Positions 10,228 through 33,421 of a DNA stretch of 64,000 nucleotides are shown in pieces (the first letter of the stretch is position 1; every line of letters begins with the position of its first letter). The notes below the pieces were generated by a model. The model saw nothing but the letters and a program-made list of their open reading frames with translations, made no database searches and was not told where the DNA came from. The DNA is taken from positions 2,666,501 to 2,730,500 of the forward strand of contig NZ_CP022707.1 in assembly GCF_025340265.1 (NCBI RefSeq), written 5' to 3'. The position numbers and the translations under genes were made by a program. This stretch comes from Novosphingobium sp. 9 (GTDB lineage: Bacteria; Pseudomonadota; Alphaproteobacteria; Sphingomonadales; Sphingomonadaceae).

Positions 10228-10541
10228 GGACGTTCTGTACCCCCTGCCCCATGCACCGGGCAACAGGCAGGATAAGGCTTCAAGCCTCACGACACTGCCG
10301 AATGCGCAAGGCGAAAAGCCTTAGCCGGTGAGGAGGGTGATTATGATCATCACATATCGTTATGATATCCTCGTTTTGCGCAACGACCGGTGGCTATTGC
10401 CGCTGTAATCGTTTCTGATTGCAAGACGTGGTGAAGCGGGGGGCCGCGACACCATCGAACAAACAACAACATGTGTCGCCGCAAGGCCCGCGCCCCCAAG
10501 ACCCTGAGAAGGGCGCGAGATAGTATTTACAGGAGAAGGGC
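10228..10541. promoter_or_regulatory. divergent intergenic region, AraC regulator / transporter
   Basis: This 314-bp gene-free stretch holds both divergent promoters. Two TTATGAT words in the same orientation at 10341-10347 and 10360-10366 are 19 bases apart, near two helical turns, as expected for an AraC-type direct-repeat site. An AGGAG ribosome site stands nine bases before the transporter ATG. No RNA gene or repeat was seen. Confidence 0.5.
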
Positions 10542-11849: not shown

Positions 11850-11880
11850 GAGCAGGCGCCCGATCGCCTGAACATACCTT

Positions 11881-11915
11881 CCGGGGCAGGACCGCCAAGG
11901 GCCGCCCTGCCCCGG
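11881..11915 (+). terminator. stem-loop after the AAHS transporter gene
   Basis: CCGGGGCAGG (11881-11890) pairs perfectly with CCTGCCCCGG (11906-11915) across a 15-base loop, 30 bases after the transporter stop. There is no T-run, so termination may be partial, letting the porin be co-transcribed. Confidence 0.45.
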
Positions 11916-11981
11916 CAACAACCTAAAAATCCAATTGCTTACAATTGAGCCTTTCGGCCAAGTTTTTCGGAGAGAATACCC

Positions 11982-13508: not shown

Positions 13509-13531
13509 GGACGATCTTTCCAACCCCAACG

Positions 13532-13564
13532 AAGGCGTCGGCACCCGCACGGTGCCGGCGCCTT
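13532..13564 (+). terminator. rho-independent terminator after porin 1
   Basis: AAGGCGTCGGCACC pairs with GGTGCCGGCGCCTT across the loop CGCAC with a single G-T pair, followed by TTC. It lies 23 bases after the porin stop and separates the porin from hmgA. Confidence 0.75.
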
Positions 13565-13648
13565 TTCAGGTCGGGCACGATCGCAAAACGCCCCTCGACC
13601 TTCCCCGCAAGCGCGCTATCTTCTCCCTTATAAAACAAGGAGAGGATC

Positions 13649-15100: not shown

Positions 15101-16446
15101 CGCTGCCCTTGCGCGATGCCACGCATGACCCGAAGCGCACCAGTTGGGTCGCAAGCGCGAACGGCCATGCGCAGTTTCCGGTGCAGAACCTGCCGCTGGG
15201 CGTCTACGCCCCGCCCGCGGGGCCTCCCCGCATCGGCGTTGCCATTGGCGCCGCAGTGCTTGACCTCGCTGCCTGCGCCGTGGCCGATCTCCTGCCCGCT
15301 GCGGCACAGGATGCGGCCTGCCAGGACACGCTGAATGCGATCTTTGCCTTGCCCGCCCGCGAACGACAGGCCCTGCGCCACAGCATCAGCGCCCTGCTCA
15401 GCGACCTGTCCTACCGCGAAATGGTGGAACCGCTGCTCACCCCGGCTGCGGATTGCACGATGCATCTGCCCGCACGGATCGGGGACTACACCGATTTCTA
15501 TGTCGGCATTCATCATGCCGAAGCGGTCGGTCGCCTGTTTCGCCCACAAAATCCTCTGCTGCCCAACTACAAGCACCTGCCCATCGGCTATCACGGACGC
15601 GCCTCCTCTGTCCGCGTCTCGGGCGAACCGGTGATCCGCCCGCGCGGACTGGTGCTTCCCGCAGGTGCCGATGTGCCCACGTACGCACCGACGGCAAGGC
15701 TCGATCACGAAGTGGAGCTGGCCTTGTGGGTCGGTCCCGGCAATGCGCCCGGACAGCCGATCCCGATTGCCGAAGCGGCGCAGCATGTGGTCGGCGTTGG
15801 CCTGCTCAACGACTGGTCGGCGCGCGATATACAGGCTTTCGAATACCAGCCGCTCGGCCCGTTCCTGGGCAAGAGCTTCCACACCTCGGTTTCGCCCTGG
15901 GTGGTGACGCTGGAGGCTCTCGCGCCGTTCCTCACCGCGCAAACACCGCGCCCCGAAGGCGACCCAGCCCCGCCGCCGCATCTGCATGACGAAGAGGACG
16001 CCCGGCGCGGCGCCCTTGCGCTCACGCTCGAAGCCAACCTCACCAGCGAGCGGATGCGACGCCACGGCGATGTGCCGCTGCGCCTCAGCCGCGCGAGTGC
16101 CGGTGCGATGTACTGGACGATGGCGCAGATGATCGCGCACCACACCTCGAACGGGTGCGACCTGCGCCCCGGCGACCTGCTCGGCACCGGCACGATCTCG
16201 GGACCTGATGAAGGCGGATGCGGAAGCCTGCTGGAGATGACGCGCGGCGGAATTGATCTCCTTACCCTGCCCTCCGGCGAGACACGCGCCTTCCTCGAAG
16301 ACGGTGACGAAGTGGTGCTGAGCGCGCGTGCACAGGCCCCCGGTGCGGTGCCGATCGGCCTGGGCGAATGTCGCGCGCGCGTGCTGCCCGCATTCGATGC
16401 CCAGGGCAGCGCTGGAACCCGCCAGGGTGCCTCTAGCCCCGTCTAG
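15097..16446 (+). CDS. fahA: fumarylacetoacetase
   Basis: Hydrolyses fumarylacetoacetate to fumarate and acetoacetate, the last step of homogentisate breakdown. The 449-residue sequence has the N-terminal SH3-like domain (to about residue 120) and the FAH catalytic domain with its metal and catalytic motifs: [11 protein letters not shown] (Asp ligand and catalytic His), [18 protein letters not shown] and [26 protein letters not shown]. It is translationally coupled to hmgA (ATGA at 15097-15100) and closed by a terminator about 45 bases downstream. Length matches family members. Confidence 0.96.
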
Positions 16447-18941: not shown

Positions 18942-20522
18942 ATGTCTGAAAGACGTGACAAAACCATGATCCTTACCGCCCTTGGCCTTGCTGCCACAAC
19001 CGCTCCCCTGGCGTTAAGCGCAGCCAGTCCGGACGCCATTCTGGTCAATTCCGATGCCGTCGCCGCCATCGCCCCGGCAACAGTGCAGGCTTCCGCGAAG
19101 GCGCCTCCCTCTGCACAGGAACCGGCTCCCGAGCCCGGCGCCAGGACCGATTTTCCCTTCGAGGCGCAAGGGCTCGGCGGCGCGGTCGGCCCGGTCTATC
19201 ACCTCTCGCGCTGGACCGAGGACTGGTCGTATCTGCGTGACAAATCCAAACGCAAGGACCCGTTCGATCCGCTCAAGTTCGTGCCGCTGGACCCCGAAGG
19301 CAACACCTACATCACCTTCAGCAACGAGATGCGGCCGCGCATCAACGTGATGTCGAACCCCGGCCTTATTCCGGGTTCACCCCGGCAGGACCAGTTGCTG
19401 ATGCGCATCTTCGCAGGCGCAGACCTGCATGTCGGGGACCATTTCCGCGCCTATGGCGAACTGGCCAGCAGCCTTGTCGGCGGCAATAACGTGCAGAAGT
19501 CCAAAACCAGCGGCTATGTGAAGAACGACCTGTTCGTCCAGCAGCTCTTCGTCGATGCCCATACGCAGATCGGCAGTGCAGACGTTGGCGTGCGCGTCGG
19601 GCGGCAGGACTTTCTCGACGGCCCACCGGTGATCATCTCCAATCAGGAGAATGCCGATATTCACGTCACTTTCGATGGCGTGCGCGGCTGGATCACCGGC
19701 AAGCGGGTGCGCGCCAGTCTGTTCGATTTCGATTACGTGACGGTCGGCACCGGTGCCTTCGACGATCCCACCGACCATTCCCGCCATCTGCGCGGCGTGA
19801 CCGCCAGCGTCATGCTTACACCGCCGGGCGGCAAAGGCGATCCGCAGATCTTCTTCGACCCTTTCCTGTGGCAATATACCAATCGCGCAGCGAGTTACGG
19901 CGGCGTGACCGGGCATGAGCGGCGCGAGACATACGGCACACGGCTTTGGGGCAGCGGTGGCCCGATCAGCTTCGACTGGACGGCGCTGAAGCAAAGCGGC
20001 CGCTTCGACGGGCGCGACATCGACGCGACGATGGTCTTCACCAAGCAGCTCGTCCAGTTGAGCAGCAAGGGCTGGAAGCCGCAGATCGGCTTCCATGCGG
20101 ACCTTGCGTCGGGTGGCGGCGCGTTCGGCGACGGCACGCTGGGAACCGCGAATTTCCTGGTCGGCTCGGTGCCGTACTGGAGCTGGTCCGTCTCGTTCGG
20201 CATGTCGAACTTCAAGGCGCTGGCCCCGATGGTGAACCTGCAACCGACCAAAAAGCTGAAAGTCCAGATGGAGTACGAGATGCTCTGGCGCGACGACGTA
20301 CACGACGCGATCTACCAGTCCTCCGGCCTGCCCTATGCGCGCACCCAGAACTCGACCGATGCGCATACCGCCAACCTGCTGCGCGCCAACATTTCCTATG
20401 CGATCAATCCCCACCTCACCTGGACTACCCGGCTCGAATATGTCGATGCCAAGGGCGGACTGACGCAGGCGGGCTACGGCGACAGCATGTTTGCGGGAAC
20501 ATGGCTGCAATTCCGGTTTTAA
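18942..20522 (+). CDS. alginate-export-family outer-membrane porin (paralogue 2)
   Basis: A 526-residue outer-membrane barrel related to the protein at 11982-13508: signal peptide within residues 1-28, linker, the shared RWTEDWS motif, then the alginate-export-type barrel ending WLQFRF with the terminal Phe. The ATG at 18942 gives the signal a basic n-region (MSERRDKTMILTALGL); the ATG at 18966 would remove it, so the first is preferred although no clear Shine-Dalgarno precedes it. It lies directly upstream of the molybdenum-hydroxylase operon, separated by a 28-bp palindrome, and may serve uptake of that pathway's substrate. Confidence 0.86.
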   Translation: MSERRDKTMILTALGLAATTAPLALSAASPDAILVNSDAVAAIAPATVQASAKAPPSAQEPAPEPGARTDFPFEAQGLGGAVGPVYHLSRWTEDWSYLRDKSKRKDPFDPLKFVPLDPEGNTYITFSNEMRPRINVMSNPGLIPGSPRQDQLLMRIFAGADLHVGDHFRAYGELASSLVGGNNVQKSKTSGYVKNDLFVQQLFVDAHTQIGSADVGVRVGRQDFLDGPPVIISNQENADIHVTFDGVRGWITGKRVRASLFDFDYVTVGTGAFDDPTDHSRHLRGVTASVMLTPPGGKGDPQIFFDPFLWQYTNRAASYGGVTGHERRETYGTRLWGSGGPISFDWTALKQSGRFDGRDIDATMVFTKQLVQLSSKGWKPQIGFHADLASGGGAFGDGTLGTANFLVGSVPYWSWSVSFGMSNFKALAPMVNLQPTKKLKVQMEYEMLWRDDVHDAIYQSSGLPYARTQNSTDAHTANLLRANISYAINPHLTWTTRLEYVDAKGGLTQAGYGDSMFAGTWLQFRF

Positions 20523-20538
20523 TCACGGCATGATGATC

Positions 20539-20566
20539 ACGGGTGATGATCCGGATCATCACCCGT
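20539..20566. promoter_or_regulatory. 28-bp perfect palindrome (terminator or operator)
   Basis: ACGGGTGATGATCC is followed directly by its exact reverse complement. It starts 17 bases after the porin stop, so it could terminate that transcript. Without loop or T-run and rich in GATGAT/ATCATC words, it could equally be a protein-binding dyad for the downstream operon. Confidence 0.6.
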
Positions 20567-20661: not shown

Positions 20662-23600
20662 ATGACAGTGTCGGCACCCGCTTCCCGTACCGTACCCGCG
20701 ACCGAAGGCCGTTCCCCGGACGCCCCCACCCCGGATGCAAAGGCTTGGGTCGGGCAGGATCTTCCCCGTGTGGAGGATGCCGCCCTGCTCACCGGACGCG
20801 GGCGTTATGTCGACGATCTGGGTGTGCGGCCGGGCACGGCCCACGCCGCGATCCTGCGCTCTGCCAGTGGCCACGCCCGCATTCGCGGCATCGACACGAC
20901 AGCGGCGCAAGCGCTTCCCGGCGTCTATGCCGTCGTCACGGCCGAGCATATTCAGGCCTTGACCAACAGCCTTGTCGTCGGCCTGAAGATCCCCATCGAA
21001 TGCTGGCCGCTGGCGGTCGACAAGGTGCGCTATTTCGGCGAGCCGGTAGCGGTCGTCGTCGCCCGCGATCGCTATGTGGCCGAAGACGCGCTCGATCTCA
21101 TCAAGGTCGATTACGAGACTCTGCCTTCGGTGATCGACCCGGAGGCCGCGCTCGCACCGGATGCGCCGGTGCTGCACGATGGCCTTGGCAGCAATCTCGC
21201 CAACACGCGCGAGTTCACCTACGGCGATCCCGAAGCCGCCTTCGCCGCCGCGCCGCACCGGATCGCAACGACCGTGCGCTATCCCCGCAGCGCCTGCACG
21301 CCGATAGAGACCTACGGTGTCGTCGCCGAATACGATGCCGGGACCGACAGCTACGATGTCACCGCCAACTTCCAGGGGCCTTTCTCGATCCACGCGGTGA
21401 TGGCCCGCGCGCTCAACGTGCCGGGCAACCGCCTGCGCCTGCGGACACCGGGCGACAGCGGCGGCAGTTTCGGGATCAAGCAGGCGATCTTTCCCTACGT
21501 CGTGCTGATCTCGGTCGCCGCGCGCGTTGCGGGCCGTCCGGTCAAGTGGATCGAGGACCGCCTCGAACACCTGATGGCCTCCTGCGTCGCCACCAACCGC
21601 GTCACCACGCTGAGCGCCGCGGTGGAGGAGGACGGCCGCATCACCGCGCTCGAATGGGACCAGCTGGAAGACACCGGCGCCCATCTGCGCGCGCCGGAGC
21701 CTGCCACGCTCTATCGCATGCACGGCAACATGACCGGTGCCTACGCGATCCAGAACGTGAAAATCCGCAACCGGCTGGTCATGACCAACAAGATGCCGAC
21801 CGGCCTCAATCGCGGCTTCGGCGGCCCGCAGATGTACTATGCGCTGGAGCGGCTGGTGCAGCGCATCGCGGTGGAACTGAACCTCGATCCGGTGGAGGTG
21901 ATCCGCCGCAACTACATTCCCGCCGATGCCTTCCCCTATCGCACCGCCACCGGCGCGCTCTACGACAGCGGCGACTACCAGGCCGCCACCGCCCGCGCGC
22001 TCGATGAAGGCGGCCTTGCGGACTTGCGCGAACGCCAGAAGCAGGCGCGTGCCGAAGGGCGGCTCTATGGCATCGGCTTTGCCGCCGCGATCGAGCCCAG
22101 CGTCTCGAACATGGGCTATATCACCGCTGTCCTGACGCCCGAGCAACGCGCCAAGGCCGGCCCCAAAAACGGTGCGCAGGCGACCGCGACGATCTCCATC
22201 GACGCGGTGGGATCGGTCAGTGTCCACGTCTCCTCGGTGCCGCAGGGTCAGGGCCACCGCACAGTGCTCTCGCAGGTTGTCGCCGACGGGCTGGGACTGG
22301 CGCCGAAGGACATCAGCGTCGTCACCGACCTCGACACCGGCAAGGATGCCTGGTCGATCGCCTCGGGCAACTATTCCAGCCGTTTCGCCGCCGCCGTTGC
22401 CGGGGCCGCGCGCATCGCCTGCGACCGTATCCGCGCCAAGCTGGCAACGGTTGCCGCCGCGCAGCTGAAGGTCGAGGTGGAGGACGTGGTTTTCGCCAAC
22501 GGCCGCGTCCACGGCAGCAATCCGGAAAAGTCGCTGCCTTTCGCCCGCATCGCCTCGTCCAGCCACTGGTCTCCGGGCGAACTGCCGCAGGGGATCGACC
22601 ATACCATTCGCGAAACCGCGTTCTGGTCCCCCCCGCAACTGACCGCGCCGGATGGACAGGACCGCGTCAATTCCTCGCTGTGCCACGGCTTCATCTTCGA
22701 CATCTGCGCGATCGAGATCGACCGCGAGACCTGCGAGATCCGTTTCGACCGCTACGTCACCATGCACGATTGCGGGCGCATCCTGCACCCCGGCATGGTC
22801 GAGGGGCAGGTCACGGGCGGCTTCGTCCATGCTCTTGGCGCCGCGATGTACGAGGAAAGCGCCTATGCGCCCGACGGCAGCCTGCTGACCGGCACACTGG
22901 CCGACTATCTGATCCCGACGATCACCGAAACGCCGCCCCTCACCATCCTGCACCACGAGACGCCCTCCCCCTTCACCCCGCTGGGCGCCAAGGGCGTGGG
23001 CGAAGGCAACTGCATGTCGACCCCGGTGTGCATCGCCAACGCCGTAGCCGACGCTTTGGGCATCGCAGAGATCACCCTGCCGATCACCCCCGCCAAGCTC
23101 GCCGAATTCATTCATGGCGAGGAACCGCAACCTTCCAAACCGGTCATGCAAAAGCCCAAGCCGACGAAGACCGGCCCCGGCGAGCGCGCGTTGACCGGTG
23201 CCGGTCAGGCCACCGTCGATGCCCCGCGCCAGCAGATCTGGAACATGCTGCTCGATCCCGACCAGCTGATGACGATCATCCCCGGCGCGCATGGCGTGGA
23301 AAAGGTATCCGACACCGAATTCACCGCCGACGTCACCCTCGGTATCGGTCCGGTCAAGGGACGCTACACCGCCCGCATCGCGCTGTCCGACCTCGACGAA
23401 CCCAATGCCGTCACGCTGGCGGGCGGCACCGAGGGGGCACTCGGCTCCGGGCAAGGCACGGGACGCATCACGCTCACCGAAGAGAATGGCCGCACCACCA
23501 TCGCCTACAACTACGAAGCCGCTGTCGGCGGCAAGGTGGCGGCCATCGGCGGACGTCTGCTGGACGGCGCCGCGCGCGTCGTCATCGGCCAGTTCTTCGA

Positions 23601-23697
23601 GGCTCTGGCGCGCAAGGCCGGTGGCTCCAGCGGTGCGAAGCTGCGCGTGCCGCTGTGGCTCAAGCGGATCTTCGCAATGGCGGGAGTCGGCAAATGA
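20662..23697 (+). CDS. hmfA: molybdopterin-binding large subunit, probable 2-furoyl-CoA dehydrogenase, fused to CoxG domain
   Basis: A 1011-residue protein with two parts. Residues about 35-825 are a xanthine-dehydrogenase/CoxL-type Mo subunit, including the conserved KGVGEGN segment whose Glu activates water during hydroxylation. Residues about 850-1000 form an SRPBCC domain of the CoxG type (ATVDAPRQQIWNMLLDPDQLMTIIPGAHG). CoxG-type proteins are normally separate genes. The AYxCSFR loop of CO dehydrogenase is absent (LNRGFGGPQM instead), so this is not a CO dehydrogenase. It heads a coupled operon (Mo, FAD, Fe-S subunits, CoA ligase, crotonase, MaoC) matching hmfABCDE, where this enzyme hydroxylates 2-furoyl-CoA at C5. 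The furan substrate is inferred from context; other heteroaromatic acyl-CoAs are possible. Confidence 0.8.
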   Translation: MTVSAPASRTVPATEGRSPDAPTPDAKAWVGQDLPRVEDAALLTGRGRYVDDLGVRPGTAHAAILRSASGHARIRGIDTTAAQALPGVYAVVTAEHIQALTNSLVVGLKIPIECWPLAVDKVRYFGEPVAVVVARDRYVAEDALDLIKVDYETLPSVIDPEAALAPDAPVLHDGLGSNLANTREFTYGDPEAAFAAAPHRIATTVRYPRSACTPIETYGVVAEYDAGTDSYDVTANFQGPFSIHAVMARALNVPGNRLRLRTPGDSGGSFGIKQAIFPYVVLISVAARVAGRPVKWIEDRLEHLMASCVATNRVTTLSAAVEEDGRITALEWDQLEDTGAHLRAPEPATLYRMHGNMTGAYAIQNVKIRNRLVMTNKMPTGLNRGFGGPQMYYALERLVQRIAVELNLDPVEVIRRNYIPADAFPYRTATGALYDSGDYQAATARALDEGGLADLRERQKQARAEGRLYGIGFAAAIEPSVSNMGYITAVLTPEQRAKAGPKNGAQATATISIDAVGSVSVHVSSVPQGQGHRTVLSQVVADGLGLAPKDISVVTDLDTGKDAWSIASGNYSSRFAAAVAGAARIACDRIRAKLATVAAAQLKVEVEDVVFANGRVHGSNPEKSLPFARIASSSHWSPGELPQGIDHTIRETAFWSPPQLTAPDGQDRVNSSLCHGFIFDICAIEIDRETCEIRFDRYVTMHDCGRILHPGMVEGQVTGGFVHALGAAMYEESAYAPDGSLLTGTLADYLIPTITETPPLTILHHETPSPFTPLGAKGVGEGNCMSTPVCIANAVADALGIAEITLPITPAKLAEFIHGEEPQPSKPVMQKPKPTKTGPGERALTGAGQATVDAPRQQIWNMLLDPDQLMTIIPGAHGVEKVSDTEFTADVTLGIGPVKGRYTARIALSDLDEPNAVTLAGGTEGALGSGQGTGRITLTEENGRTTIAYNYEAAVGGKVAAIGGRLLDGAARVVIGQFFEALARKAGGSSGAKLRVPLWLKRIFAMAGVGK

Positions 23698-24521
23698 AGC
23701 CCGCCCCGTTCGATTATCTGCGCGCCGGCCATATCGATGAAGCGCTCGACCTGCTGCGGCGCGAGGGCGGCGATGCCCGCGTGATCGCAGGTGGTCAGTC
23801 GCTGCTGCCGATGCTCAACATGCGCCTAGCCCGGCCCAAGGTCCTGCTCGACGTGATGCACGTCCCCGAACTGGCCGAAGTACGCGAAGAGCGCGGCAGC
23901 CTGCGCATCGGCGCGGGCGTGCGACAGGCACAGGTGCTCGGCATCGAGAACCTTGCCCGGCGCCAGCCCCTGCTCGCTGCCGGACTTTCATGGGTGGGCC
24001 ATGCGCAGACCCGAGCGCGCGGCACCGTCTGCGGCTCGATCGCCCATGCCGACCCTTCCGCCGAACTGCCGCTGACCCTGCTGACGCTGGGCGGTGAAGT
24101 CCACCTGCGCACGGCGAAGAAGCGCCGCACGCTGGCCGCTGCCGATTTCATGACCGGCATGATGGCCACCGCCAAAGCCGACGACGAGATGATCGAGGCG
24201 GTCTCCATCCCGCTCGCCAGATCCGGCACCGGCTATGCCTTCAACGAGATCGGGCGTCGCCACGGCGACTTCGCCATCGTCGCCTGCGCGGCGATGGTGG
24301 ACGAGACCCGCACCGTGCTCGGCATCGGCGGTGTGGCGGACATGCCCGCCCGGCGCGAACTGCCGCTGCCCGATGCACCCGACTTTGCCGACGCGCTCAA
24401 CCAGTTCGCCTGGGAACTGGATGCGCGCGACGACCTTCACGCCAGCGCCCGCTATCGCCGCGACCTCGTTCGCCAGATGGGCGCCCGCACTATCGAGGAG
24501 GCCGCAAGATGCCGCGCCTGA
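23694..24521 (+). CDS. hmfB: FAD-binding subunit of the molybdenum hydroxylase
   Basis: The medium subunit of 275 residues belongs to the CoxM/xanthine-dehydrogenase FAD family: VIAGGQSLLPMLNMRLARP (about 30-48) and the second flavin-contact segment TRARGTVCGSIAHADPSAELP (about 104-124), followed by the CO-dehydrogenase flavoprotein C-terminal domain. It passes electrons from the Fe-S subunit to an acceptor. Its start overlaps the large-subunit stop by four bases and its end overlaps the Fe-S subunit gene by 13 bases, so the three subunits are made together. Confidence 0.88.
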   Translation: MKPAPFDYLRAGHIDEALDLLRREGGDARVIAGGQSLLPMLNMRLARPKVLLDVMHVPELAEVREERGSLRIGAGVRQAQVLGIENLARRQPLLAAGLSWVGHAQTRARGTVCGSIAHADPSAELPLTLLTLGGEVHLRTAKKRRTLAAADFMTGMMATAKADDEMIEAVSIPLARSGTGYAFNEIGRRHGDFAIVACAAMVDETRTVLGIGGVADMPARRELPLPDAPDFADALNQFAWELDARDDLHASARYRRDLVRQMGARTIEEAARCRA

Positions 24522-25072
24522 ACGCCGATACGCGCCACCCCGTCACCTTCACGCTCAACGGCCGCGAAGTCTCCGGCCTGGCCGAACCGCGGCTGCTGCT
24601 GAGCGACTTCCTGCGGCACGAGATCGGCGCCACCGGCACGCATGTCGGGTGCGAGCACGGCGTCTGCGGCGCCTGCACCGTGCAGATCGACGGGCGCCTT
24701 GCCCGCTCGTGCCTCGCGCTGGCCGTGCAGACCCATGGCGCTGATGTGCGCACGGTCGAAGGCCTGTCGCAAGACGGCGGACGCACCCTCTCGGTGCTGC
24801 AGGAGGCGTTCCGTGAACATCACGGATTGCAGTGCGGCTTCTGCACGCCGGGCTTCCTGATGAGCCTCGACGCGCTGCTGCGCACCCGCCCGGATGCAAG
24901 CGAGGACGATATTCGCGAGGTGCTCTCCGGCCATCTGTGCCGCTGCACCGGCTACGCCCCGATCCTGACGGCGGCCCTTGCCGCGCGCGATCGGCTGCTG
25001 GCCGAGAGAGACGCCTCGGGAGAGGACAATGCCCCCGATGCGGGCGACAAGGAGACCATGACCCATGCTTGA
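24509..25072 (+). CDS. hmfC: 2Fe-2S subunit of the molybdenum hydroxylase
   Basis: The small subunit of 187 residues carries both clusters: the plant-ferredoxin type (Cys48, Cys53, Cys56, Cys68 in CEHGVCGAC…SC) and the [2Fe-2S]-binding helical domain (Cys109, Cys112, Cys144, Cys146 in CGFC…CRC). All eight ligands are present. It relays electrons from the Mo centre to FAD. The C-terminal 25 residues are acidic and variable. Its stop lies inside the start of the following CoA-ligase gene (8-base overlap). Confidence 0.92.
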
Positions 25073-26633
25073 CCTGGGAACGACGTTCATCGCCGCGCTG
25101 GAGCGCGATCCCGACCGGATCGCGATCATCGACGGCGACGTGCGGCTGACATACGCACAATGGTACGCCAGGATTTCCGCGCTGGTCGCCTCGCTGGAGA
25201 AGATCGGCCTCAAGCCCGGCGATCACCTCGTCAGCGTGCTCAAGAACCGCTGGCAGGCCGCGACGCTGCACTGGGCCTGCCAGTTCTCGGGCGTGATCCT
25301 CACCCCGATCAACTGGCGCTCCAAGGCCGACGAGGTCAGCTATGCGGTGCACGATGCCGAAGCCTGCGCCATCGTCTACGAGGACCTGCCGGAAAAGACC
25401 GTCGCCTCGGCGGGGCTCGATGGCTCGGTAGTCCACATCACGCTCGACACGCCCCGCGTGGGTGAACTGGCTTTCGACGACCTGATCGCCGATACCGCCG
25501 CCCCGCCTGCAAAGCCGCGCGCCAAGGCCGACGACTGGTCGCTGATGCTCTACACCTCGGGCACCACCTCGCGTCCCAAGGGTGTACCGCGCCGCCAGCG
25601 GGCCGAGCGCGCCGCCGCCATCGCCCATGTCGCGCAGAACCTCTACGGCTACGGCGAAAAGACGCTGGGTGTCATGCCGCTCTATCACACGATGGGCGTG
25701 CGCTCGCTGCTGGCCACCGCGATCATCAACGGCACCTTCGTGTGCATGCCCAAGTTCGATCCCGCCGAGGCGGTAACGCTGATCGAGAAGGAGGGCATCC
25801 AGAACCTCTATCTCGTGCCCACGCTGTACCATGACATTGTGCGCCATCCCGATTTCGCGCCCGAACGGGTCGCCTCGGTGCGCAAGATCGGCTTTGCCGG
25901 CGCACCGATGACCGACGGATTGCTCAAGCAGGTCGATGCCGCGTTCGGCCCCGAGCTGTTCGTCAACCACTACGGCTCTTCCGAGATCTACACCTGCACC
26001 ATCGACCAGAACGCGCAGGCCAAACCCGGCAGCGCAGGCAAATCGGGCATCAACCAGCTGATCCGCGTGGTCGCCTTCGACCATGACGATCCCGAAGCCG
26101 TGGCCCCCCACGGCACCGAAGGCCAGATCATCGCGCTGCTGGAAGGCGACGAGGCCTTCGAGGGATACTGGCGGCGGCCCGAAGCCAACGAGAAATCGCT
26201 GAAGAACGGCTGGTTCTTCTCCTCCGACACCGGCTATTTCGACGAGGACGGCGATCTGTTCGTCACCGGTCGCCTTGACGACATGATCATCTCGGGCGGC
26301 GAGAATGTCTCCCCGGTCGAGGTCGAAAGCCAGCTCTCGCTGCACCCGGCAGTGGGCGAAGTCGCCGTCGTCGGGCTGCCGCACGAGCGCTGGGGCAAAG
26401 TCGTCACCGCGTTCGTCGCACCCTCGAAACCCGTCACCGCCGAGGAGCTGGACGCCTTCTGCGCCGCCTCCACGCTCGCCAACTTCAAGCGCCCGCGTGC
26501 CTTCGTATTCGTGCGCGAAATTCCCAAGTCGCCGGTCGGCAAGCTGCTGCGCCGCAAGCTGGTTTCCGGCGAATACGAAGAACTCACCCCTTCCGATCTC
26601 CCCACTTCCGACATCAAGGATACCGCCGCATGA
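25065..26633 (+). CDS. hmfD: acyl-CoA synthetase, probable 2-furoate-CoA ligase
   Basis: AMP-forming ligase of 522 residues. The P-loop LMLYTSGTTSRPKGVPR (about 160-176), the acyl-site region NHYGSSEIYTC (about 300) and the C-terminal hinge DDMIISGGENVSPVEVE (about 405-421) are intact, and the final Lys needed for adenylation appears in KSPVGKLLRR. It should convert a carboxylic acid, ATP and CoA to the acyl-CoA that the Mo hydroxylase oxidises. GGAG precedes the ATG at a suitable distance, and both ends overlap neighbouring genes. HmfD assignment rests on operon content; a general aryl- or acyl-CoA ligase role cannot be excluded. Confidence 0.85.
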   Translation: MLDLGTTFIAALERDPDRIAIIDGDVRLTYAQWYARISALVASLEKIGLKPGDHLVSVLKNRWQAATLHWACQFSGVILTPINWRSKADEVSYAVHDAEACAIVYEDLPEKTVASAGLDGSVVHITLDTPRVGELAFDDLIADTAAPPAKPRAKADDWSLMLYTSGTTSRPKGVPRRQRAERAAAIAHVAQNLYGYGEKTLGVMPLYHTMGVRSLLATAIINGTFVCMPKFDPAEAVTLIEKEGIQNLYLVPTLYHDIVRHPDFAPERVASVRKIGFAGAPMTDGLLKQVDAAFGPELFVNHYGSSEIYTCTIDQNAQAKPGSAGKSGINQLIRVVAFDHDDPEAVAPHGTEGQIIALLEGDEAFEGYWRRPEANEKSLKNGWFFSSDTGYFDEDGDLFVTGRLDDMIISGGENVSPVEVESQLSLHPAVGEVAVVGLPHERWGKVVTAFVAPSKPVTAEELDAFCAASTLANFKRPRAFVFVREIPKSPVGKLLRRKLVSGEYEELTPSDLPTSDIKDTAA

Positions 26634-27415
26634 CCGACCCTTATGCCAACCTCGAAGGCTTCACCGTCGAGATCGACGCCGAGCAGCAGCGCGGCGACAT
26701 CATCCTCGACAATGGTGAGTTCAACACCATCTCGATGGCCCAGCGCGACCAGCTGAAAACCGTGTTCGAGGCGCTCGACGCCGATGACCGCGTGCGCGTG
26801 ATCGTGGTGCGCGCAATCGGCCAGCACTTCTCCTCGGGCGGCTACATCATGGGCTTCCTCGAAGCCTCGCCCGAACATGTCTCGAAGCTCGCCTGGAACA
26901 TCGCCGCGCCGGTGCGCTGCGAAAAGCCGGTGATCGCCGCCAACCGCGGCTTCGCTTTCGGTGTCGGCTTCGAGCTGTCGCTCGCCTGCGATTTCCGCAT
27001 CGTCACCGAGACGACGCGCTATGCCCTGCCCGAACAGAAGCTGGGCCAGATTCCCGGCTCGGGCGGCTCGGCGCGCCTTCAGAAGATCGTCGGCGTCGCG
27101 CGCACCAAGAACATCGTGATGCGCTCGCGCCGCGTCACCGGGCAGGAAGCCTACGATTGGGGCCTTGCCAGCGAGATCGTGCCCGATGCCGAACTGGAAG
27201 CCGCAACCGACGCCCTCGTCAAGGAACTGATCGGCTTCTCGCCGATCGCCCAGCGCACCGCCAAGAAGCTGCTCAACGACAGCGACGACGCGTTCCTTTC
27301 GACCGCAATCGAACTGGAAGGGCACTGCTATTCGCGCCTGCGCACCTCGGATGACTTCGCCGAGGGCGTCAAGGCCTTCCACGAAAAGCGCAAGCCTGTA
27401 TTCAAGGGGAGCTAA
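26630..27415 (+). CDS. hmfE: enoyl-CoA hydratase/isomerase-fold protein, probable 2-oxoglutaroyl-CoA hydrolase
   Basis: Crotonase-fold protein of 261 residues with the first oxyanion-hole segment HFSSGGYIMGF (about 65-75) and the second, RGFAFGVGFELSLACDFRI (about 105-123). In the known furoate pathway a protein of this fold, HmfE, releases 2-oxoglutarate from 2-oxoglutaroyl-CoA after ring opening. Members with other activities (hydratase, isomerase, decarboxylase) look similar, so the hydrolase role rests on its place right after the ligase (ATGA overlap 26630-26633). The MaoC gene follows after 25 bases. Confidence 0.8.
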   Translation: MTDPYANLEGFTVEIDAEQQRGDIILDNGEFNTISMAQRDQLKTVFEALDADDRVRVIVVRAIGQHFSSGGYIMGFLEASPEHVSKLAWNIAAPVRCEKPVIAANRGFAFGVGFELSLACDFRIVTETTRYALPEQKLGQIPGSGGSARLQKIVGVARTKNIVMRSRRVTGQEAYDWGLASEIVPDAELEAATDALVKELIGFSPIAQRTAKKLLNDSDDAFLSTAIELEGHCYSRLRTSDDFAEGVKAFHEKRKPVFKGS

Positions 27416-27440
27416 CCCCTCCACAAGGATTCCCCACGCG

Positions 27441-27917
27441 ATGACCGAGCCGACCGAAACCGCCCGCCCCCCGATGCGCTGGCTGGATGACATCGAGGTC
27501 GGCTTCGCGTGGGAAGGCCGCCCCATCGCGATGGACGAGGCGGCGATCATCGCCTTTGCGAAACTCTACGACCCCCAGCCCATGCACATCGACCCCGAAG
27601 CCGCCGCGAAAGGCCGCTTCGGCACCGTGATCGCCAGCGGCTGGCAAGTCGCCGCGCTGGTGATGCGCGATTATGTCGAGACCAGCCCTTTCGGCGATCT
27701 CGAACTGCTCGGCCTCGGCCTCGACGATCTCGCCTGGAGCGAAGCCGTCCGCCCCGGCGACACGCTTGTCGCCCGCCGTGAAATCGTCGAGGCCCGCCCC
27801 TCGCGCAGCAAACCGGATCGCGGCGTTGTGCGCATCGCCGTCACCGTCACCAACCAGCACGACCGCACCGTGATGCGCTACGTCAACGCGATCCAGATGT
27901 TCCGCAAGCCGGAGTAA
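27441..27917 (+). CDS. MaoC-family (R)-hydratase-like dehydratase
   Basis: A 158-residue single hot-dog-fold MaoC protein. The catalytic motif region is seen as AKLYDPQPMHIDPEAAA (Asp and His) and FGTVIASGWQVAA. MaoC hydratases add water across C=C bonds of acyl-CoAs. It is the last gene of the operon, 25 bases after the crotonase gene with AAGGA before the ATG. The canonical hmfABCDE set has no MaoC gene; here it could hydrate 5-hydroxy-2-furoyl-CoA or its lactone tautomer to help ring opening. That role is inference. Confidence 0.85.
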   Translation: MTEPTETARPPMRWLDDIEVGFAWEGRPIAMDEAAIIAFAKLYDPQPMHIDPEAAAKGRFGTVIASGWQVAALVMRDYVETSPFGDLELLGLGLDDLAWSEAVRPGDTLVARREIVEARPSRSKPDRGVVRIAVTVTNQHDRTVMRYVNAIQMFRKPE

Positions 27918-27965
27918 GGTTCAGTAGAACGAGGCCATATTGCTGAAAGTTGGCTTCGCGATTTC

Positions 27966-28535
27966 TCACGCTTTCCAGCGGCGCACCAGTTGGGTGTCGA
28001 TATCGAACAGGTCGAGCACGCGGCCGAGAGTATGGTCGACCATGTCCTCGATGCTCTGCGGCCTGGCGTAGAATGCGGGGACCGGCGGAGCGACGATTGC
28101 GCCCATTTCCGAAACCTGGGTCATCGTGCGCAAGTGCCCGGTGTGCAGTGGTGTTTCGCGCACCATCATCACCAGACGGCGACGGTCCTTCAACACCACG
28201 TCGGCGGCACGCGTCAGCAGTCCGGTCGTGGTGCCCCAGGCGATCTCCGACATCGACTTGATCGAGCACGGCGCCACGATCATGCCACGCGTGCGGAACG
28301 AGCCCGAAGCAATCGATGCGCCGATATCGGCCTGCGCGTGGACCTGTGTCGCCAGTTCGCGCACGGCGGCGAGCTTCCAGTCGGTTTCGTGCGCGACGGT
28401 GATCTCTGCCCCGCGCGACATGACAAGATGCGTCTCGATACCAAGATCGCGCAGGATCTGCAGCAGGCGTATCCCGTAGATCGCGCCCGACGCGCCGGAC
28501 ATCCCCACGATCAGCGGGCGGCTGTCTGCGGTCAT
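27966..28535 (-). CDS. ubiX: UbiX-family flavin prenyltransferase
   Basis: Flavoprotein of 189 residues opening with the FMN-binding GMSGASGAIYGIRLLQIL, followed by the APCSIKSMSEIAWG and MMVRETPLHTGHLRTM segments conserved in UbiX/Pad1. It makes the prenylated FMN cofactor needed by UbiD decarboxylases from FMN and dimethylallyl phosphate. It lies on the minus strand, ends 48 bases from the MaoC gene and is followed upstream by the LysR gene; the partner UbiD decarboxylase is at 29752. This corresponds to HmfG of the HMF pathway. A second, ubiquinone-related UbiX may exist elsewhere. Confidence 0.93.
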   Translation of the reverse strand: MTADSRPLIVGMSGASGAIYGIRLLQILRDLGIETHLVMSRGAEITVAHETDWKLAAVRELATQVHAQADIGASIASGSFRTRGMIVAPCSIKSMSEIAWGTTTGLLTRAADVVLKDRRRLVMMVRETPLHTGHLRTMTQVSEMGAIVAPPVPAFYARPQSIEDMVDHTLGRVLDLFDIDTQLVRRWKA

Positions 28536-28654
28536 CTCTATCCTCTCCTCAAGGCGGAAGCGCCGGACTTCAGGCCCGGTCGCCTCGGTATCGTGGCCGA
28601 TCAGTCTAGGCCGGACACACCATCACGTCGAATAAGCAGAATTGAGAGATAGCA

Positions 28655-29602
28655 TCACGCTTCCTGATCATCATCGCTCTCATCGTCCTGCACCGCCACG
28701 GCATGTCCGTCACCGCCAAGCGCCTTCACCGCCGCCTCGCGCATCATCGTGATGAAGGCGTCGGCGGCGGGGGAGAGCGGGTGGCGCGGGTGATGGATGA
28801 TCGCCAGCTTGCGCGTGAGCGGCGGTGACAGGGGGCGGGTGCTGAGTCGTCCCGCCAGCGCCTCCCGGCGGATGGCAAGGCTCGGCAGCACCGTCGCCCA
28901 GTCCGACCGCGCCACCGTCTCGCAGATACCGTCAATCGAATCCATCTCCAGCCGCATGGTCAGATCGAGATCGCGCGCCTGAAAATAGCGGTCCAGTTCG
29001 AGCCGCAGGCCGTGGCGGCGCGAGGGCAGTACCAGCTTGGCCTGCGCAAGGTCGGCAGCGGCGATCGGCTTGCCGTCCGCCGCCTTCCCTGCCGCCGTGA
29101 CGAACATCATCTGTTCGTCGATCAGCGTTTCGGACACGAGACCAAGGCGACGCGGCGGCTTGTTGATGATCGCAAAATCCAGCGCGCCCTGCTGCACCTG
29201 CTCGATGAAAGTGGAGGAGAACCCGTCCACCACGTCCACTTCCACCTCGGGATAGGTCGCCGCGAAGTCGATCAGCATGGCGGGCACGAAGCTGGCGGTC
29301 AGGCTGGCAAGGATACCCACGGTAATGCGGCCCGAGATCACGCCCGAAAGCTTGGCCATATGCTCGCGCGCCACCGAAAGGTCGCGCAGCACCGGCACGA
29401 CCAGGCGATAGAGCGTGCGCCCCGCGCTGGTCGGCACCATGGCCTTGGAGCGACGTTCGAACAGTTGCAGCCCGAACTCCTTCTCCAGCTTGGCGAGTTG
29501 CATCGAGACCGCCGGCTGCACCACGTAAAGCCGCGCCGCCGCGCGGGTCACGCTGCCCTCTTCGTAGAGCGCCACGAAATAGCTGATCTGCCGCAGGTCC
29601 AA
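28655..29602 (-). CDS. LysR-family transcriptional regulator
   Basis: A 315-residue regulator with the winged helix at 1-60 (MDLRQISYFVALYEEGSVTRAAARLYVVQPAVSMQLAKLEKEFG) and a periplasmic-binding-like effector domain (about 90-300), plus an acidic tail. It is transcribed away from the UbiD gene across a 149-bp gap that holds a T-N11-A dyad (29619-29633), the classical LysR arrangement. It probably controls ubiX, ubiD-SDR-ALDH and perhaps the upstream Mo-hydroxylase operon, responding to a furan acid or CoA ester. The effector is unknown. Confidence 0.92.
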   Translation of the reverse strand: MDLRQISYFVALYEEGSVTRAAARLYVVQPAVSMQLAKLEKEFGLQLFERRSKAMVPTSAGRTLYRLVVPVLRDLSVAREHMAKLSGVISGRITVGILASLTASFVPAMLIDFAATYPEVEVDVVDGFSSTFIEQVQQGALDFAIINKPPRRLGLVSETLIDEQMMFVTAAGKAADGKPIAAADLAQAKLVLPSRRHGLRLELDRYFQARDLDLTMRLEMDSIDGICETVARSDWATVLPSLAIRREALAGRLSTRPLSPPLTRKLAIIHHPRHPLSPAADAFITMMREAAVKALGGDGHAVAVQDDESDDDQEA

Positions 29603-29618
29603 TCGCTCTCACCTTTTT

Positions 29619-29633
29619 ATCATCGCCGATGAT
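29619..29633. promoter_or_regulatory. LysR-type T-N11-A dyad between lysR and ubiD
   Basis: ATCATC-GCC-GATGAT is a perfect six-base-arm dyad that also reads T-N11-A, starting 17 bases before the LysR start codon and about 120 before the UbiD start. This is the usual position for autoregulation and divergent activation. Confidence 0.55.
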
Positions 29634-29751
29634 CCTGAAGATCACCAATCCTTACTTTGGTTTATAGCATACGGCCTTAGACTGGCAGCGCAAACAGCAA
29701 AGACGGCCACGCATCCAATGGCCGCAAGGAACGGATACGGGAAAGGATACG

Positions 29752-31131
29752 ATGAAAGCCGACCGCACACGCACCGCGCTCTCGCTGCGCGACTGGATGG
29801 AGCGCCTCCAGGCCACCGGACGCCTCGCCATCGCCAACCCGGATCGCGATCTCGTCCACGAAGTCGCCGCCATCGCCAACCGGCTCGATGGTCACAAAGC
29901 CAGCGTCTTTCCCAAGGTGGGCGCGATGGACGGGACGGTGATCTGCGGCCTGCTGTCGGACCGCAACTGGATGGCCGAAGCGCTCGACGTCGCCCCGTCC
30001 GAGCTGATCGCGCTCTACAAGCGGGCCTGCGACGAGCCGGTCGCCAGCATCGAGGTGGCGGACGCCCCGGTGCAGGAGGTCGTCCACACCGACGTCGATA
30101 TCCTTGCCCAGCTGCCGGTGCCCACGCACAACGAACATGACTCCGGCCCTTACATCACCGCCGGGCTGCTGATCAGCCGCGATCCCGAAACCGGCGTGCA
30201 GAACGTCACCATCCACCGCTGCCAGATCAGCAGCCGCAACCGCATCGGCGTGCTGCTGCTGCCGCGCCATACCGACAACTTCTTCCGCAAGGCCAAGGCG
30301 ATGGGCAAGGCGCTGGAAATCGCCATCGTCATCGGTTGCGAACCCTCGCTGATGATGGCGAGCCAGGCCATCGTGCCGCTGGGGCATGACGAACTGGAGA
30401 TCGCGGGAACCCTGCGCGGGGCCGCGCTGCCGGTGGTAAAGTGCAAGACCAATGACGTGCGCGTCCCCGCAGAGGCCGAGATCGTCGTCGAAGGGCGCAT
30501 CCTGCCCGATGCCATGGAACCCGAAGGGCCCTTCGGCGAATTCCCGCAGTATTATGGCGAGCGCGACAACCGTCACGTCATCGAAGTGGACGCGATCACC
30601 CATCGCCGCGATCCGCTGTTCCACACCATCGTCGGCGGCGGGCTGGAGCACCTGCTGCTGGGCGCGATCCCGCGCGAGGCCTCGATCCTCGCCACCATGC
30701 GCCGCAGCTTTCCGGGCGTGGTGGATGTTGCGCTCGGCCTCGGCGGTGTCGGGCGCTATCACCTCTATATCCAGCTCGACAAGACACAGGACGGCGAGGG
30801 CAAGAACGTGCTGATGGCCGCCTTCGCCGCGCACTACGACATCAAGCACGCGGTCGTCGTCGATCTGGACGTGAACATCCACGATGCCCGCGAAGTCGAA
30901 TGGGCCGTCGCCACGCGCTTCCAAGCCGATTGCGACCTGCTGCTGGTAACGGAAAGCCAGGGCTCCAAGCTCGATCCCTCCACCCGCGATGGCGTGGGCG
31001 CCAAGCTCGGCTTCGATGCGACGATCCCGGTCAATGCGCCCGAGATGAAGTTCAAGCGCATCCGCGTGCCGGGACAGGCCGAGGTCGATCTTGATGCCGT
31101 ACTGGATCAAAATGCGACTTTCAAGTTTTAA
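29752..31131 (+). CDS. hmfF: UbiD-family decarboxylase, probable furan-2,5-dicarboxylate decarboxylase
   Basis: A 459-residue UbiD enzyme. The prenyl-FMN/metal-binding and catalytic parts appear as NVTIHRCQISSRNRIG (Arg) and the EGPFGEFPQYYG segment holding the catalytic Glu pair. UbiD enzymes reversibly decarboxylate unsaturated or (hetero)aromatic acids. With a UbiX gene beside it and a furoyl-CoA-type operon next door, the best match is HmfF, which turns 2,5-furandicarboxylate into 2-furoate. Related pyrrole- and indole-carboxylate decarboxylases are very similar, so substrate is not settled by sequence. It leads an operon with an SDR and an aldehyde dehydrogenase. Confidence 0.82.
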   Translation: MKADRTRTALSLRDWMERLQATGRLAIANPDRDLVHEVAAIANRLDGHKASVFPKVGAMDGTVICGLLSDRNWMAEALDVAPSELIALYKRACDEPVASIEVADAPVQEVVHTDVDILAQLPVPTHNEHDSGPYITAGLLISRDPETGVQNVTIHRCQISSRNRIGVLLLPRHTDNFFRKAKAMGKALEIAIVIGCEPSLMMASQAIVPLGHDELEIAGTLRGAALPVVKCKTNDVRVPAEAEIVVEGRILPDAMEPEGPFGEFPQYYGERDNRHVIEVDAITHRRDPLFHTIVGGGLEHLLLGAIPREASILATMRRSFPGVVDVALGLGGVGRYHLYIQLDKTQDGEGKNVLMAAFAAHYDIKHAVVVDLDVNIHDAREVEWAVATRFQADCDLLLVTESQGSKLDPSTRDGVGAKLGFDATIPVNAPEMKFKRIRVPGQAEVDLDAVLDQNATFKF

Positions 31132-31170
31132 AACAAAGATTTGGGCGGGGAAGCCTTGAAGGAGAAGACT

Positions 31171-31953
31171 ATGGCCGGATTGGCCCAGAACCGTACGACG
31201 CGGCTGGAAGGCCGCGCGATCATCGTGACCGGCGCGGCGCAGGGCATTGGCGCCGCCTATGCCAAGGCGCTCGCCGCGCACGGCGCCCGTCTCGCGCTGT
31301 GTGACATTGCTGCGCCCGAGGACACCGCCGCCGCGATCCGCGCTGAGGGCGCCGAGGCTTTAGCCATGGCAGCCGACATCACCGATGCCACAGCGCTTGC
31401 GGCCTTCGTCGCAAAGACGGTCGAAACCTACGGCTCGGTCGACGTGCTGGTGAACAACGCCGCCCTGTTCGCGACGCTGGCGCTCAAGCCGCTGGAAGAG
31501 ATTTCCTCCGACGAGTGGGACAAGGTGATGACCGTCAACGTGCGCGGCACGTTCGAGTGCATCAAGGCGGTCACCCCGCAGATGAAAAAGCAGGGCCACG
31601 GCAAGATCATCAACGTGGCATCGGGCACCGTGTTCAAGGGCGCACCGATGATGCTGCACTATGTCTCGTCCAAGGGCGCGATCGTGGGCATGACCCGCTC
31701 GGTCGCGCGTGAACTGGGCGATGCCGGGATCACCTGCAACTGCCTTGCGCCGGGCCTGACCATGAGCGCCAACGTCCAGCACAATGCCGACTGGGCAGGC
31801 CGGATCGTGGAGGCCAACGTCGCCAGCCGCTGCATCAAGCGTGAGGCGGTGCCCGAGGATCTGACCGGCGCCCTCGCCTTCCTCGCCAGCGCCGACAGCG
31901 ACTTCATGACCGGCCAGACCGTCGTGGTCGACGGCGGTTCGGTCACGCATTGA
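31171..31953 (+). CDS. short-chain dehydrogenase/reductase
   Basis: Classical SDR of 260 residues: NAD-binding TGAAQGIG (about 20-27), NNAA (about 95), catalytic Ser in NVASG and Tyr-x-x-x-Lys in YVSSK, with the usual PG turn after it (CLAPGLTM). ATG 31171 follows AAGGAGAAG. It stands 39 bases after the UbiD gene and just before an aldehyde dehydrogenase. In a furan pathway an alcohol dehydrogenase is needed to oxidise furfuryl alcohol or hydroxymethylfurfural, which this enzyme could supply in place of the HmfH oxidase. The substrate is inferred. Confidence 0.88.
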   Translation: MAGLAQNRTTRLEGRAIIVTGAAQGIGAAYAKALAAHGARLALCDIAAPEDTAAAIRAEGAEALAMAADITDATALAAFVAKTVETYGSVDVLVNNAALFATLALKPLEEISSDEWDKVMTVNVRGTFECIKAVTPQMKKQGHGKIINVASGTVFKGAPMMLHYVSSKGAIVGMTRSVARELGDAGITCNCLAPGLTMSANVQHNADWAGRIVEANVASRCIKREAVPEDLTGALAFLASADSDFMTGQTVVVDGGSVTH

Positions 31954-31964
31954 GGAGACAGGAC

Positions 31965-33421
31965 ATGGAAGTGCCCGCTATGCAGGCTATCGCCTCCCAC
32001 TGGATCGACGGCAAGCCCGTCGAGACCCCCGCCGCCCAGAGCATCGACCCGGCGACGGGCGAGGTCGTCGGCCACTTTGCCGATGGCGGCGAACCCGAGG
32101 CACGCGCCGCCATCGCCGCCGCCCGTCACGCCTTCGAGACCAGCGACTGGCCCATGGCCCCGCGCCTGCGCCAGCGCGTGATGCTCGACTGGGCCGCCGC
32201 ACTGCACACACAGGTCGATGCCCTTGCCGAACTGCTGACGCGCGAAAACGGCAAACCGCTGGCCGCCTCGAAAGGCGAAGTGCTCGGCGCGATCTCGGAA
32301 GTCGAATATTACGCCGGGATCACCCGCTACATTCCGGGGCATGTGCTGGAGCCTGCCCCCGGCGTGCTCTCCACCGTGCTGCGCGAACCGGCGGGCGTCG
32401 CGGCCGTGATCGTGCCGTGGAACGCGCCAGCAGTGTTGCTGGCGCGTGGCCTTGGCCCGGCGCTGGCAGCGGGCTGCACCACCGTGATCAAGCCCGCACC
32501 GCAAACGGTGCTATTCAACGCCGCCTTCCTCGCCCCGCTTGTGCGCCATCCGCAGCTTCCGGCGGGCGTGGTCAACATCTTCGCCGAGACGGGTGCGGCG
32601 GGATCGAAGCTGCTCGCCTCCTCGCACGATGTCGACGTGATGTGCTTCACCGGCTCGACCGACGTGGGCAAGGACATCATGCGCGCCTCTGCGGATTCGA
32701 TGAAGAAGCTCTCGCTGGAGTTGGGCGGCAAGTCCTGCGCCATTGTGCTCGCCGATGCCGACCTTGCCGCCATCGCCCCGCAGATCGCGGCAGCCGCGAC
32801 GATCATCTCGGGCCAGCAGTGTACTGCCGCGCGCCGCGTGCTCGTCCACGCCTCGCGCTTCGTGGAGATGAAGCGCGTGCTGGCCGATGCCCTCGCCGCC
32901 ATCCCCATCGGCAACGGGCTGGATGCCGGGGTCGCGATGGGACCGCTGATCGACGTGCCCTCGCGCGACAAGGTGAAGGCCCGCATCGACGAGGCCTGTG
33001 CGCTGGCGGACGAAGTGGTGCTCGCAGGCACCGTACCCGAAGGCAACGGCGCGTTCCTGACGCCCACGCTGGTCCATCATCAGGACACCAGGGCCTTCTT
33101 CATGCAGGAAGAGATCTTCGGCCCCTTCCTGACCATCGAGAGCTTCGAGACAGAGGCCGAGGCCGTCCAGCGCGCCAACGATACCACCTATGGCCTTTCC
33201 GCCAGCGTTTGGACCCATGATGGCAGCGCGGCGCTGCGCCTTGCCCGTGCCCTGCGCAACGGCACCGTCTGGATCAATGCCCACAACCCCTGCTTCCCGA
33301 AGTGGAGACCGGTGGATATCGCCAGAGCGGTATCGGTCGTCTCCACGGCTACGATGCCTTGGCCGATTTCACCGAGCTGAAGCACATCTACCAGGCCCCG
33401 GGGGTCGCCGGCCGGACCTGA
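31965..33421 (+). CDS. aldehyde dehydrogenase, frameshifted near the C-terminus
   Basis: NAD(P)-dependent aldehyde dehydrogenase, about 485 residues after correction. Visible motifs are the nucleotide-binding PWNAP and GSTDVGK, catalytic Glu in ELGGKS, catalytic Cys in SGQQCTAARR and EEIFGPF. The frame breaks at the CCCC run 33287-33290: with one extra C the protein reads INAHNPLLPEVETGGYRQSG, IGRLHGYDALADFTELK and on to a stop at 33421, the normal family ending. Without it a wrong tail ends at 33380. A lost base in the data is the simpler explanation. ATG 31965 follows GAGGAG just after the SDR stop. It probably oxidises furfural or hydroxymethylfurfural-type aldehydes to acids. Confidence 0.88.

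Follow-up and report, generated by a model that had tools for sequence, protein, structure and literature searches.

Gene Content and Organization of the Locus

The stretch under study, a window of 64,000 nucleotides from Novosphingobium sp. 9 (contig NZ_CP022707.1, positions 2,666,501 to 2,730,500; genome of 4.39 Mb in 2 contigs), carries between positions 20662 and 33380 a compact group of genes resembling the hmf set, the known bacterial genes for breaking down furans formed when plant sugars are heated. The original prediction had described this region as a probable complete furan catabolic cluster, composed of molybdenum (Mo), FAD and Fe-S hydroxylase subunits, a coenzyme A (CoA) ligase, a crotonase-fold protein, UbiD, UbiX, a LysR regulator, a short-chain dehydrogenase/reductase (SDR) and an aldehyde dehydrogenase (ALDH). 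Each of these genes was recovered as an open frame whose domain score lies far above cut-off (Pfam; NCBIfam for UbiX). Two adjoining genes had been overlooked, one of the MaoC family and one of the Alginate_exp family, and the region had been drawn to 33421, past the stop of its last gene at 33380. The features, in window coordinates, are the following.

18942-20522, + strand: Alginate_exp (PF13372) outer-membrane protein, likely the outer-membrane channel of the cluster (Pfam, 130.9 bits)
20662-23697, + strand: hmfA-like, putative Mo subunit of 2-furoyl-CoA dehydrogenase with a C-terminal CoxG domain (Pfam; identities to hmf loci)
23694-24521, + strand: hmfB-like, FAD subunit (PF00941, 150 bits, in a longer frame containing hmfB; 50-68% identity to most fetched hmfB)
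24509-25072, + strand: hmfC-like, [2Fe-2S] subunit (PF01799, 104 bits; 56-79% to most fetched hmfC)
25065-26633, + strand: hmfD-like, putative 2-furoyl-CoA synthetase of the acyl-CoA ligase type (PF00501, 219 bits; 57-74% to most fetched hmfD)
26630-27415, + strand: hmfE-like, crotonase fold, proposed 2-oxoglutaroyl-CoA hydrolase (PF00378, 166 bits; identity up to 85%, in Sphingomonas desiccabilis)
27441-27917, + strand: MaoC-family, hydratase-like (PF01575, 60.6 bits, in a frame with an earlier start)
27966-28535, - strand: hmfG/psfC-like, UbiX flavin prenyltransferase, predicted to supply prenylated flavin mononucleotide (prFMN) to UbiD (NF004685, 269.5 bits, cut-off 188; 68% to Pseudomonas umsongensis)
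28655-29602, - strand: psfB-like, LysR regulator, divergent from ubiD (60% to the S. desiccabilis and 43% to the P. umsongensis counterpart)
29752-31131, + strand: hmfF-like, predicted UbiD-family 2,5-furandicarboxylate decarboxylase (solved-protein scores, tree, conserved residues)
31141-31953, + strand: psfG-like, SDR, proposed to convert the acid of 5-hydroxymethylfurfural (HMF-acid) to formylfuroate (67-71% to its counterparts in hmf loci of Pseudomonas and Sphingomonas)
31950-33380, + strand: psfA-like, ALDH, proposed to convert formylfuroate to furandicarboxylate (PF00171, 414 bits; 63-76% to P. umsongensis, P. baetica and S. desiccabilis)

By strand the genes fall into three units, hmfABCDE-maoC (+), lysR-ubiX (-) and ubiD-sdr-aldh (+), rather than the two transcription blocks initially proposed. 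Within the + strand blocks, neighbouring genes overlap by 4-13 bp or sit 9-25 bp apart. The hmfA-B-C-D-E genes follow one another in a single operon-like run with overlaps of 4-13 bp, each of them homologous to known hmf genes, and the MaoC gene starts 25 bp after hmfE; in the second block the ubiD-SDR gap is 9 bp and the SDR and ALDH genes overlap by 4 bp. The spacing between ubiX and lysR is 119 bp. The Alginate_exp gene ends 139 bp before hmfA and may belong to the cluster, because S. desiccabilis has a 44%-identical gene near hmfA, with a gene of the major facilitator superfamily (MFS) lying between the two. Taken together with the evidence below, the region is very probably an hmf/psf cluster for furan-acid catabolism, of the type that employs PsfG and PsfA.

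Assignment of the UbiD Protein

Among proteins of solved structure, the window UbiD scores best against 6h6v (441 bits) and 6h6x (432 bits), the former being HmfF according to the accessible text of PMC8988006. The next different solved enzyme is the indole-3-carboxylate decarboxylase AnInD (218 bits), followed by 3,4-dihydroxybenzoate decarboxylases of the AroY type (173-182 bits), UbiD proper (154 bits) and PA0254/HudA (about 79 bits). On these scores, assignment to the indole, pyrrole, protocatechuate or ubiquinone types of UbiD was rejected, the outgroup of the tree described below being made up of same-genus and same-order UbiDs. A siding of the protein with pyrrole- or indole-type enzymes, which the original prediction had named as grounds for abandoning the furan interpretation, is thus not seen in the scores.

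The residue of HmfF numbered H297 is described as key for furan-type substrates in the part of PMC7976604 available. This specificity histidine occupies position 296 when counted on the solved chain, and it aligns with His300 of the window protein. Arg308 aligns with Arg304 of HmfF, which we take to have a role in specificity as well. Conservation was examined in 88 UbiD loci, comprising eight of the 30 plasmid records listed (of 421 with a match) and the best 80 from a genome scan. His300 is present in all 88 relatives and Arg308 in 85 of them; of the 18 outgroup UbiDs, drawn from genomes of the same genus and order, 3 have the former residue and 0 the latter.

A quick maximum-likelihood tree was calculated for 106 UbiDs with the same outgroup. 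The window protein falls into a group of 10 rows (support 99), together with S. desiccabilis, Azospirillum, Bosea, Methylobacterium and Lichenibacterium, nested in a set of 89 rows (support 92) which also holds P. umsongensis and Cupriavidus; the 17 other UbiDs taken from genomes of the same genus and order lie apart from it. By sequence, the window UbiD is therefore HmfF-like, HmfF being its nearest match among characterised UbiDs. The furan-catabolic interpretation is upheld, since the protein is closest to HmfF by score and groups with UbiDs of hmf-bearing bacteria.

The Molybdenum Subunit and the Lower Pathway

Identities between the Mo subunit and its equivalents in other hmf loci are 46-77%, mostly 56-70%. 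Among the 120 HmfA-like relatives listed, many go by the JGI name 2-furoyl-CoA dehydrogenase large subunit; a few are named otherwise, e.g. caffeine dehydrogenase or carbon monoxide dehydrogenase, such names not being tests. The best solved enzyme is CoxL with 430 bits, and S. desiccabilis HmfA gives 1481 bits in a different program. Assignment as a CO dehydrogenase was rejected, as the NCBIfam models for this and the other listed Mo enzymes score far below their cut-offs. Collectively, the homologies point to 2-furoyl-CoA synthetase and dehydrogenase as the activities which the cluster would encode.

A CoxG domain occupies residues 848-986 of the Mo subunit. The fusion was considered as an unusual trait and dismissed, being common to all 120 relatives listed (of 7962 matches). 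In the hmf-like set of the Gram-positive Geobacillus kaustophilus (plasmid pHTA426), CoxG is a separate gene adjoining the Mo subunit.

Proposed Pathway and Comparison with Known Systems

Gene content, open frames, homology and the UbiD residues are the observations from which the activities, the order of the steps and their regulation are predicted. The SDR would oxidise 5-hydroxymethyl-2-furoate to 5-formyl-2-furoate, and the ALDH would carry this on to 2,5-furandicarboxylate. UbiD, with prFMN provided by UbiX, would then decarboxylate the dicarboxylate to 2-furoate, from which the ligase would form 2-furoyl-CoA. Hydroxylation of the latter at C5 is attributed to the three-subunit Mo enzyme, and opening of the lactone and cleavage of the thioester, presumably by HmfE and perhaps with the MaoC protein, would yield 2-oxoglutarate. 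Furfural and furfuryl alcohol could enter at furoate via the same or other dehydrogenases.

A system of this kind is described in the accessible sections of PMC12064950, where P. umsongensis GO16 carries a cluster without hmfH. Deletion of its psfG (SDR) or psfA (ALDH) gene abolishes growth on 5-hydroxymethylfurfural (HMF) and HMF-acid, deletion of psfA additionally that on formylfuroate, with growth of both strains on furandicarboxylate and furoate retained; an hmfF deletion strain loses growth on HMF and furandicarboxylate and keeps that on furoate. These growth defects are those expected and support the scheme. The substitution of HmfH by an SDR and an ALDH, put forward in the original prediction, thus agrees with the roles given to PsfG and PsfA by these knock-outs; for the same reason it is not new, nor can it be regarded as unusual, the pair occurring together (SDR at ≥50%, ALDH at ≥48% identity) in 12 of the 88 loci as well.

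At the locus of the P. umsongensis type strain (L026), counterparts were found for UbiD (65%), SDR (67%), ALDH (64%), LysR (43%) and UbiX (68%), and the GO16 list, as far as available, has HmfA-E, as the window does. GO16 differs in gene order, and its HmfT and HmfI transporters, psfD and araC have no recognised counterpart in the window cluster, which in turn holds the MaoC and Alginate_exp genes in excess of the GO16 set. In Cupriavidus (L006 and L009, the loci of C. necator and C. oxalaticus, which stood in for the C. basilensis HMF14 proteins), HmfA-D, F and G have counterparts at 52-64% identity and HmfE at 74% in L009. There ubiX follows ubiD on the same strand, whereas in the window ubiX lies on the - strand and ubiD on the + strand. 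C. basilensis HMF14 itself, in the text available, has HmfH where the window has the SDR and ALDH, and L006 has a GMC oxidoreductase plus an ALDH. No HmfH-type GMC oxidoreductase domain was detected in the 20 frames scanned (16758-38550), the rest of the genome lying outside this search.

S. desiccabilis (L010, L110 and L111) provides the closest whole counterpart, at 60-85% identity: HmfA 75-77%, HmfB 64%, HmfC 79%, HmfD 74%, HmfE 85%, UbiX 79%, LysR 60%, UbiD 71%, SDR 71% and ALDH 76%, with the Alginate_exp protein at 44%. Its ALDH and SDR genes are on the other strand, with those for UbiX and LysR, and two MFS genes and an SSF symporter gene lie near the cluster. The difference in gene order from the described cluster, remarked upon in the original prediction, is ordinary, because order varies among related loci. 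The term "complete" overstates the case a little: no inner-membrane transporter, PsfD-type gene or oxidase converting HMF to HMF-acid was recognised in the cluster. No XdhC-like (PsfD-type) gene stands beside it, both XdhC_CoxI matches of the genome being outside the window.

Recurrence of the Cluster and Alternative Substrates

At least one lower-pathway hmf gene accompanies UbiD in 59 of the 88 loci, many of which are cut by contig ends (one record, L003, is without annotation); 38 of 88 hold all of hmfABCDE, and UbiX at ≥50% identity is found in 59 of 88. Genes for the Mo, FAD and Fe-S subunits and the ligase lie near UbiD in seven of the eight plasmid loci, while in the eighth, from Bosea, only the ligase and HmfE genes are seen, close to where the stretch ends. 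Comparable sets are found in Alpha-, Beta- and Gammaproteobacteria alike, so the grouping is not due to chance.

Five loci from Proteobacteria metagenome-assembled genomes (L027, L032, L043, L048 and L055) form one subclade of HmfF-like UbiDs. Their neighbours are only 29-35% alike to the window ligase and SDR, with no hmfABC match within the stretch, and possibly the subclade serves a different pathway. A TIGR02444-family gene adjoins ubiX in the hmf regions of Bosea (L002, 11937-12455) and Dinoroseobacter (L004, 9765-10241); no such protein was recognised in the window cluster.

The different neighbours of these 5 of 88 loci raise the question of whether the window cluster might itself act on a related heteroaromatic acid, for instance a carboxylate of thiophene, pyrrole or a substituted furan, through the same logic of ligase, Mo-hydroxylase and UbiD. 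The UbiD and Mo-hydroxylase families do span many substrates, and the MaoC gene has no equivalent in the hmf sets seen. Against this stand the conservation of His300 and Arg308 in UbiD, the counterparts in hmf loci of nine partner genes, i.e. all but MaoC, and the match of the SDR/ALDH pair to that of P. umsongensis, and such an alternative substrate is very unlikely.

Some of the evidence tells against the assignment as a furan-acid cluster. The 89-row set has a support of 92, below the tree's own mark of 95, and the characterised non-furan enzymes, including those for pyrrole and indole, are outside the tree; none of the fetched relatives exceeds 71% identity to the window UbiD, which sits on a fairly long branch (0.38). 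No lower-pathway gene is seen in 29 of the 88 UbiD loci within the stretch read. The absence of a recognised transporter, PsfD or HMF oxidase inside the cluster and the use of stand-ins for the C. basilensis proteins count in the same direction.

The MaoC Gene and Its Possible Role in Opening of the Lactone

In the accessible text of PMC6678421, HmfD is the furoyl-CoA synthetase, HmfABC the furoyl-CoA dehydrogenase and HmfE a proposed 2-oxoglutaroyl-CoA thioesterase, the lactone hydrolysis step being without an assigned gene in 2019. A putative 5-hydroxy-2-furoyl-CoA hydrolase of Pseudomonas, hyd, is credited to Donoso 2021 in that of PMC12064950. MaoC is absent from the hmf gene lists of both papers, as far as these are available, and no match to the window gene appears in the stretches of the 88 related loci (E up to 0.01). 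Likewise, no paper linking MaoC with furoyl-CoA was found in the open-licence literature.

Among the matches listed, relatives of the MaoC protein reach 71% identity over at least 91% of the length (one fragmentary match has 73%), and the named ones at 66-71% all come from Sphingomonas; the best other match within 59 same-genus genomes is 44%. The relative in S. desiccabilis (69-71%) lies on a different contig from hmf, between trehalase and Mn-catalase genes, and this lack of linkage speaks against a fixed role of MaoC in furan breakdown. In two pairs, a MaoC and an HmfA match of the same source share the size of the longest contig (24769 for P0023/P0133, 12906 for P0019/P0221), a hint of linkage elsewhere. 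In Bosea, a PaaI-family thioesterase gene lies directly 3' of the hmfE-like gene; PaaI and MaoC share the hot-dog fold.

It is conceivable, though rather doubtful, that the MaoC protein opens the enol-lactone, hydrating 5-oxo-2-furoyl-CoA before HmfE frees 2-oxoglutarate. The gene is the only part of the cluster that may be new.

Candidate Regulatory Sites

A palindrome lies upstream of each of the + strand blocks.

20545-20560, no strand: palindrome GATGATCCGGATCATC, in the gap before hmfA; possible LysR operator, or else a terminator belonging to the preceding gene
29619-29633, no strand: palindrome ATCATCGCCGATGAT, in the lysR-ubiD gap; exact match in the window; candidate LysR operator

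The 14-base core of GATGATCCGGATCATC has an exact match at one genome site only. In S. desiccabilis the lysR-ubiD gap contains GATGATCGCGATCATC, a near copy of the palindrome upstream of hmfA, and AATTATTT comes shortly after GATGATCGCGATCATC there and after the window's palindrome before hmfA. This suggests one LysR regulon extending over both + strand blocks, in which the LysR protein would probably control both units. This reading is weakened by the fact that GATGATCCGGATCATC also scores as terminator-like and that few other loci have the motif: similar palindromes upstream of ubiD occur in few loci (L002, L010, L054 and L072), and the motif is consequently not general.

Distribution and Origin

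At E 1e-100 or better, this UbiD turned up once among 195 same-genus genomes and once among 396 genomes drawn from the order, in each case in this genome itself; S. desiccabilis came from a separate genome collection. A search of 59 same-genus genomes detected coq9 in 56. In all 29 of the relatives' loci that were read, its ankyrin neighbour is retained, and in 28 of them the following gene as well. Neither the hmf genes nor the queried left-flank genes of the window lie beside coq9 in any of the eight extended relatives, two of which extend over only 4.0 and 7.9 kb. The gene which the relatives share next to coq9 sits about 1.56 Mb away in the contig of this genome, so the site has been rearranged and offers no clean insertion boundary. 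Acquisition of the cluster by transfer is likely.

This rarity, together with the fact that no transporter was recognised between 20662 and 33380, would also fit a set acquired without uptake or maturation genes of its own and silent or non-functional as a pathway. That all frames are open and tightly spaced argues otherwise, as do the two XdhC-family genes elsewhere in the genome and the presence of the outer-membrane protein gene and the palindromic candidate operators; a silent set is accordingly most improbable, and a working furan-acid cluster remains the preferred interpretation.

A second catabolic set is found at 9241-16446 of the window, with an AraC regulator, an MFS transporter, homogentisate dioxygenase, fumarylacetoacetase and a further Alginate_exp outer-membrane protein (11982-13508). 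The location of Alginate_exp proteins next to both catabolic sets suggests that this family serves the uptake of aromatic acids in this organism.

Implications

By title and abstract, no report of hmf genes in sphingomonads was found in the open-licence literature. The cluster belongs to a known kind and has an uncommon host, and it adds a rare example, probably from a sphingomonad, to furan catabolism; the named best hits agree with such a host. The example may be of use where furan inhibitors are removed from plant hydrolysates or furandicarboxylate is produced. A specialist would not find it surprising, and only the MaoC gene bears on the open point, namely the enzyme that opens the lactone. 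If the role considered for it were true, some sphingomonads would have enlisted their own hot-dog-fold enzyme for this step.

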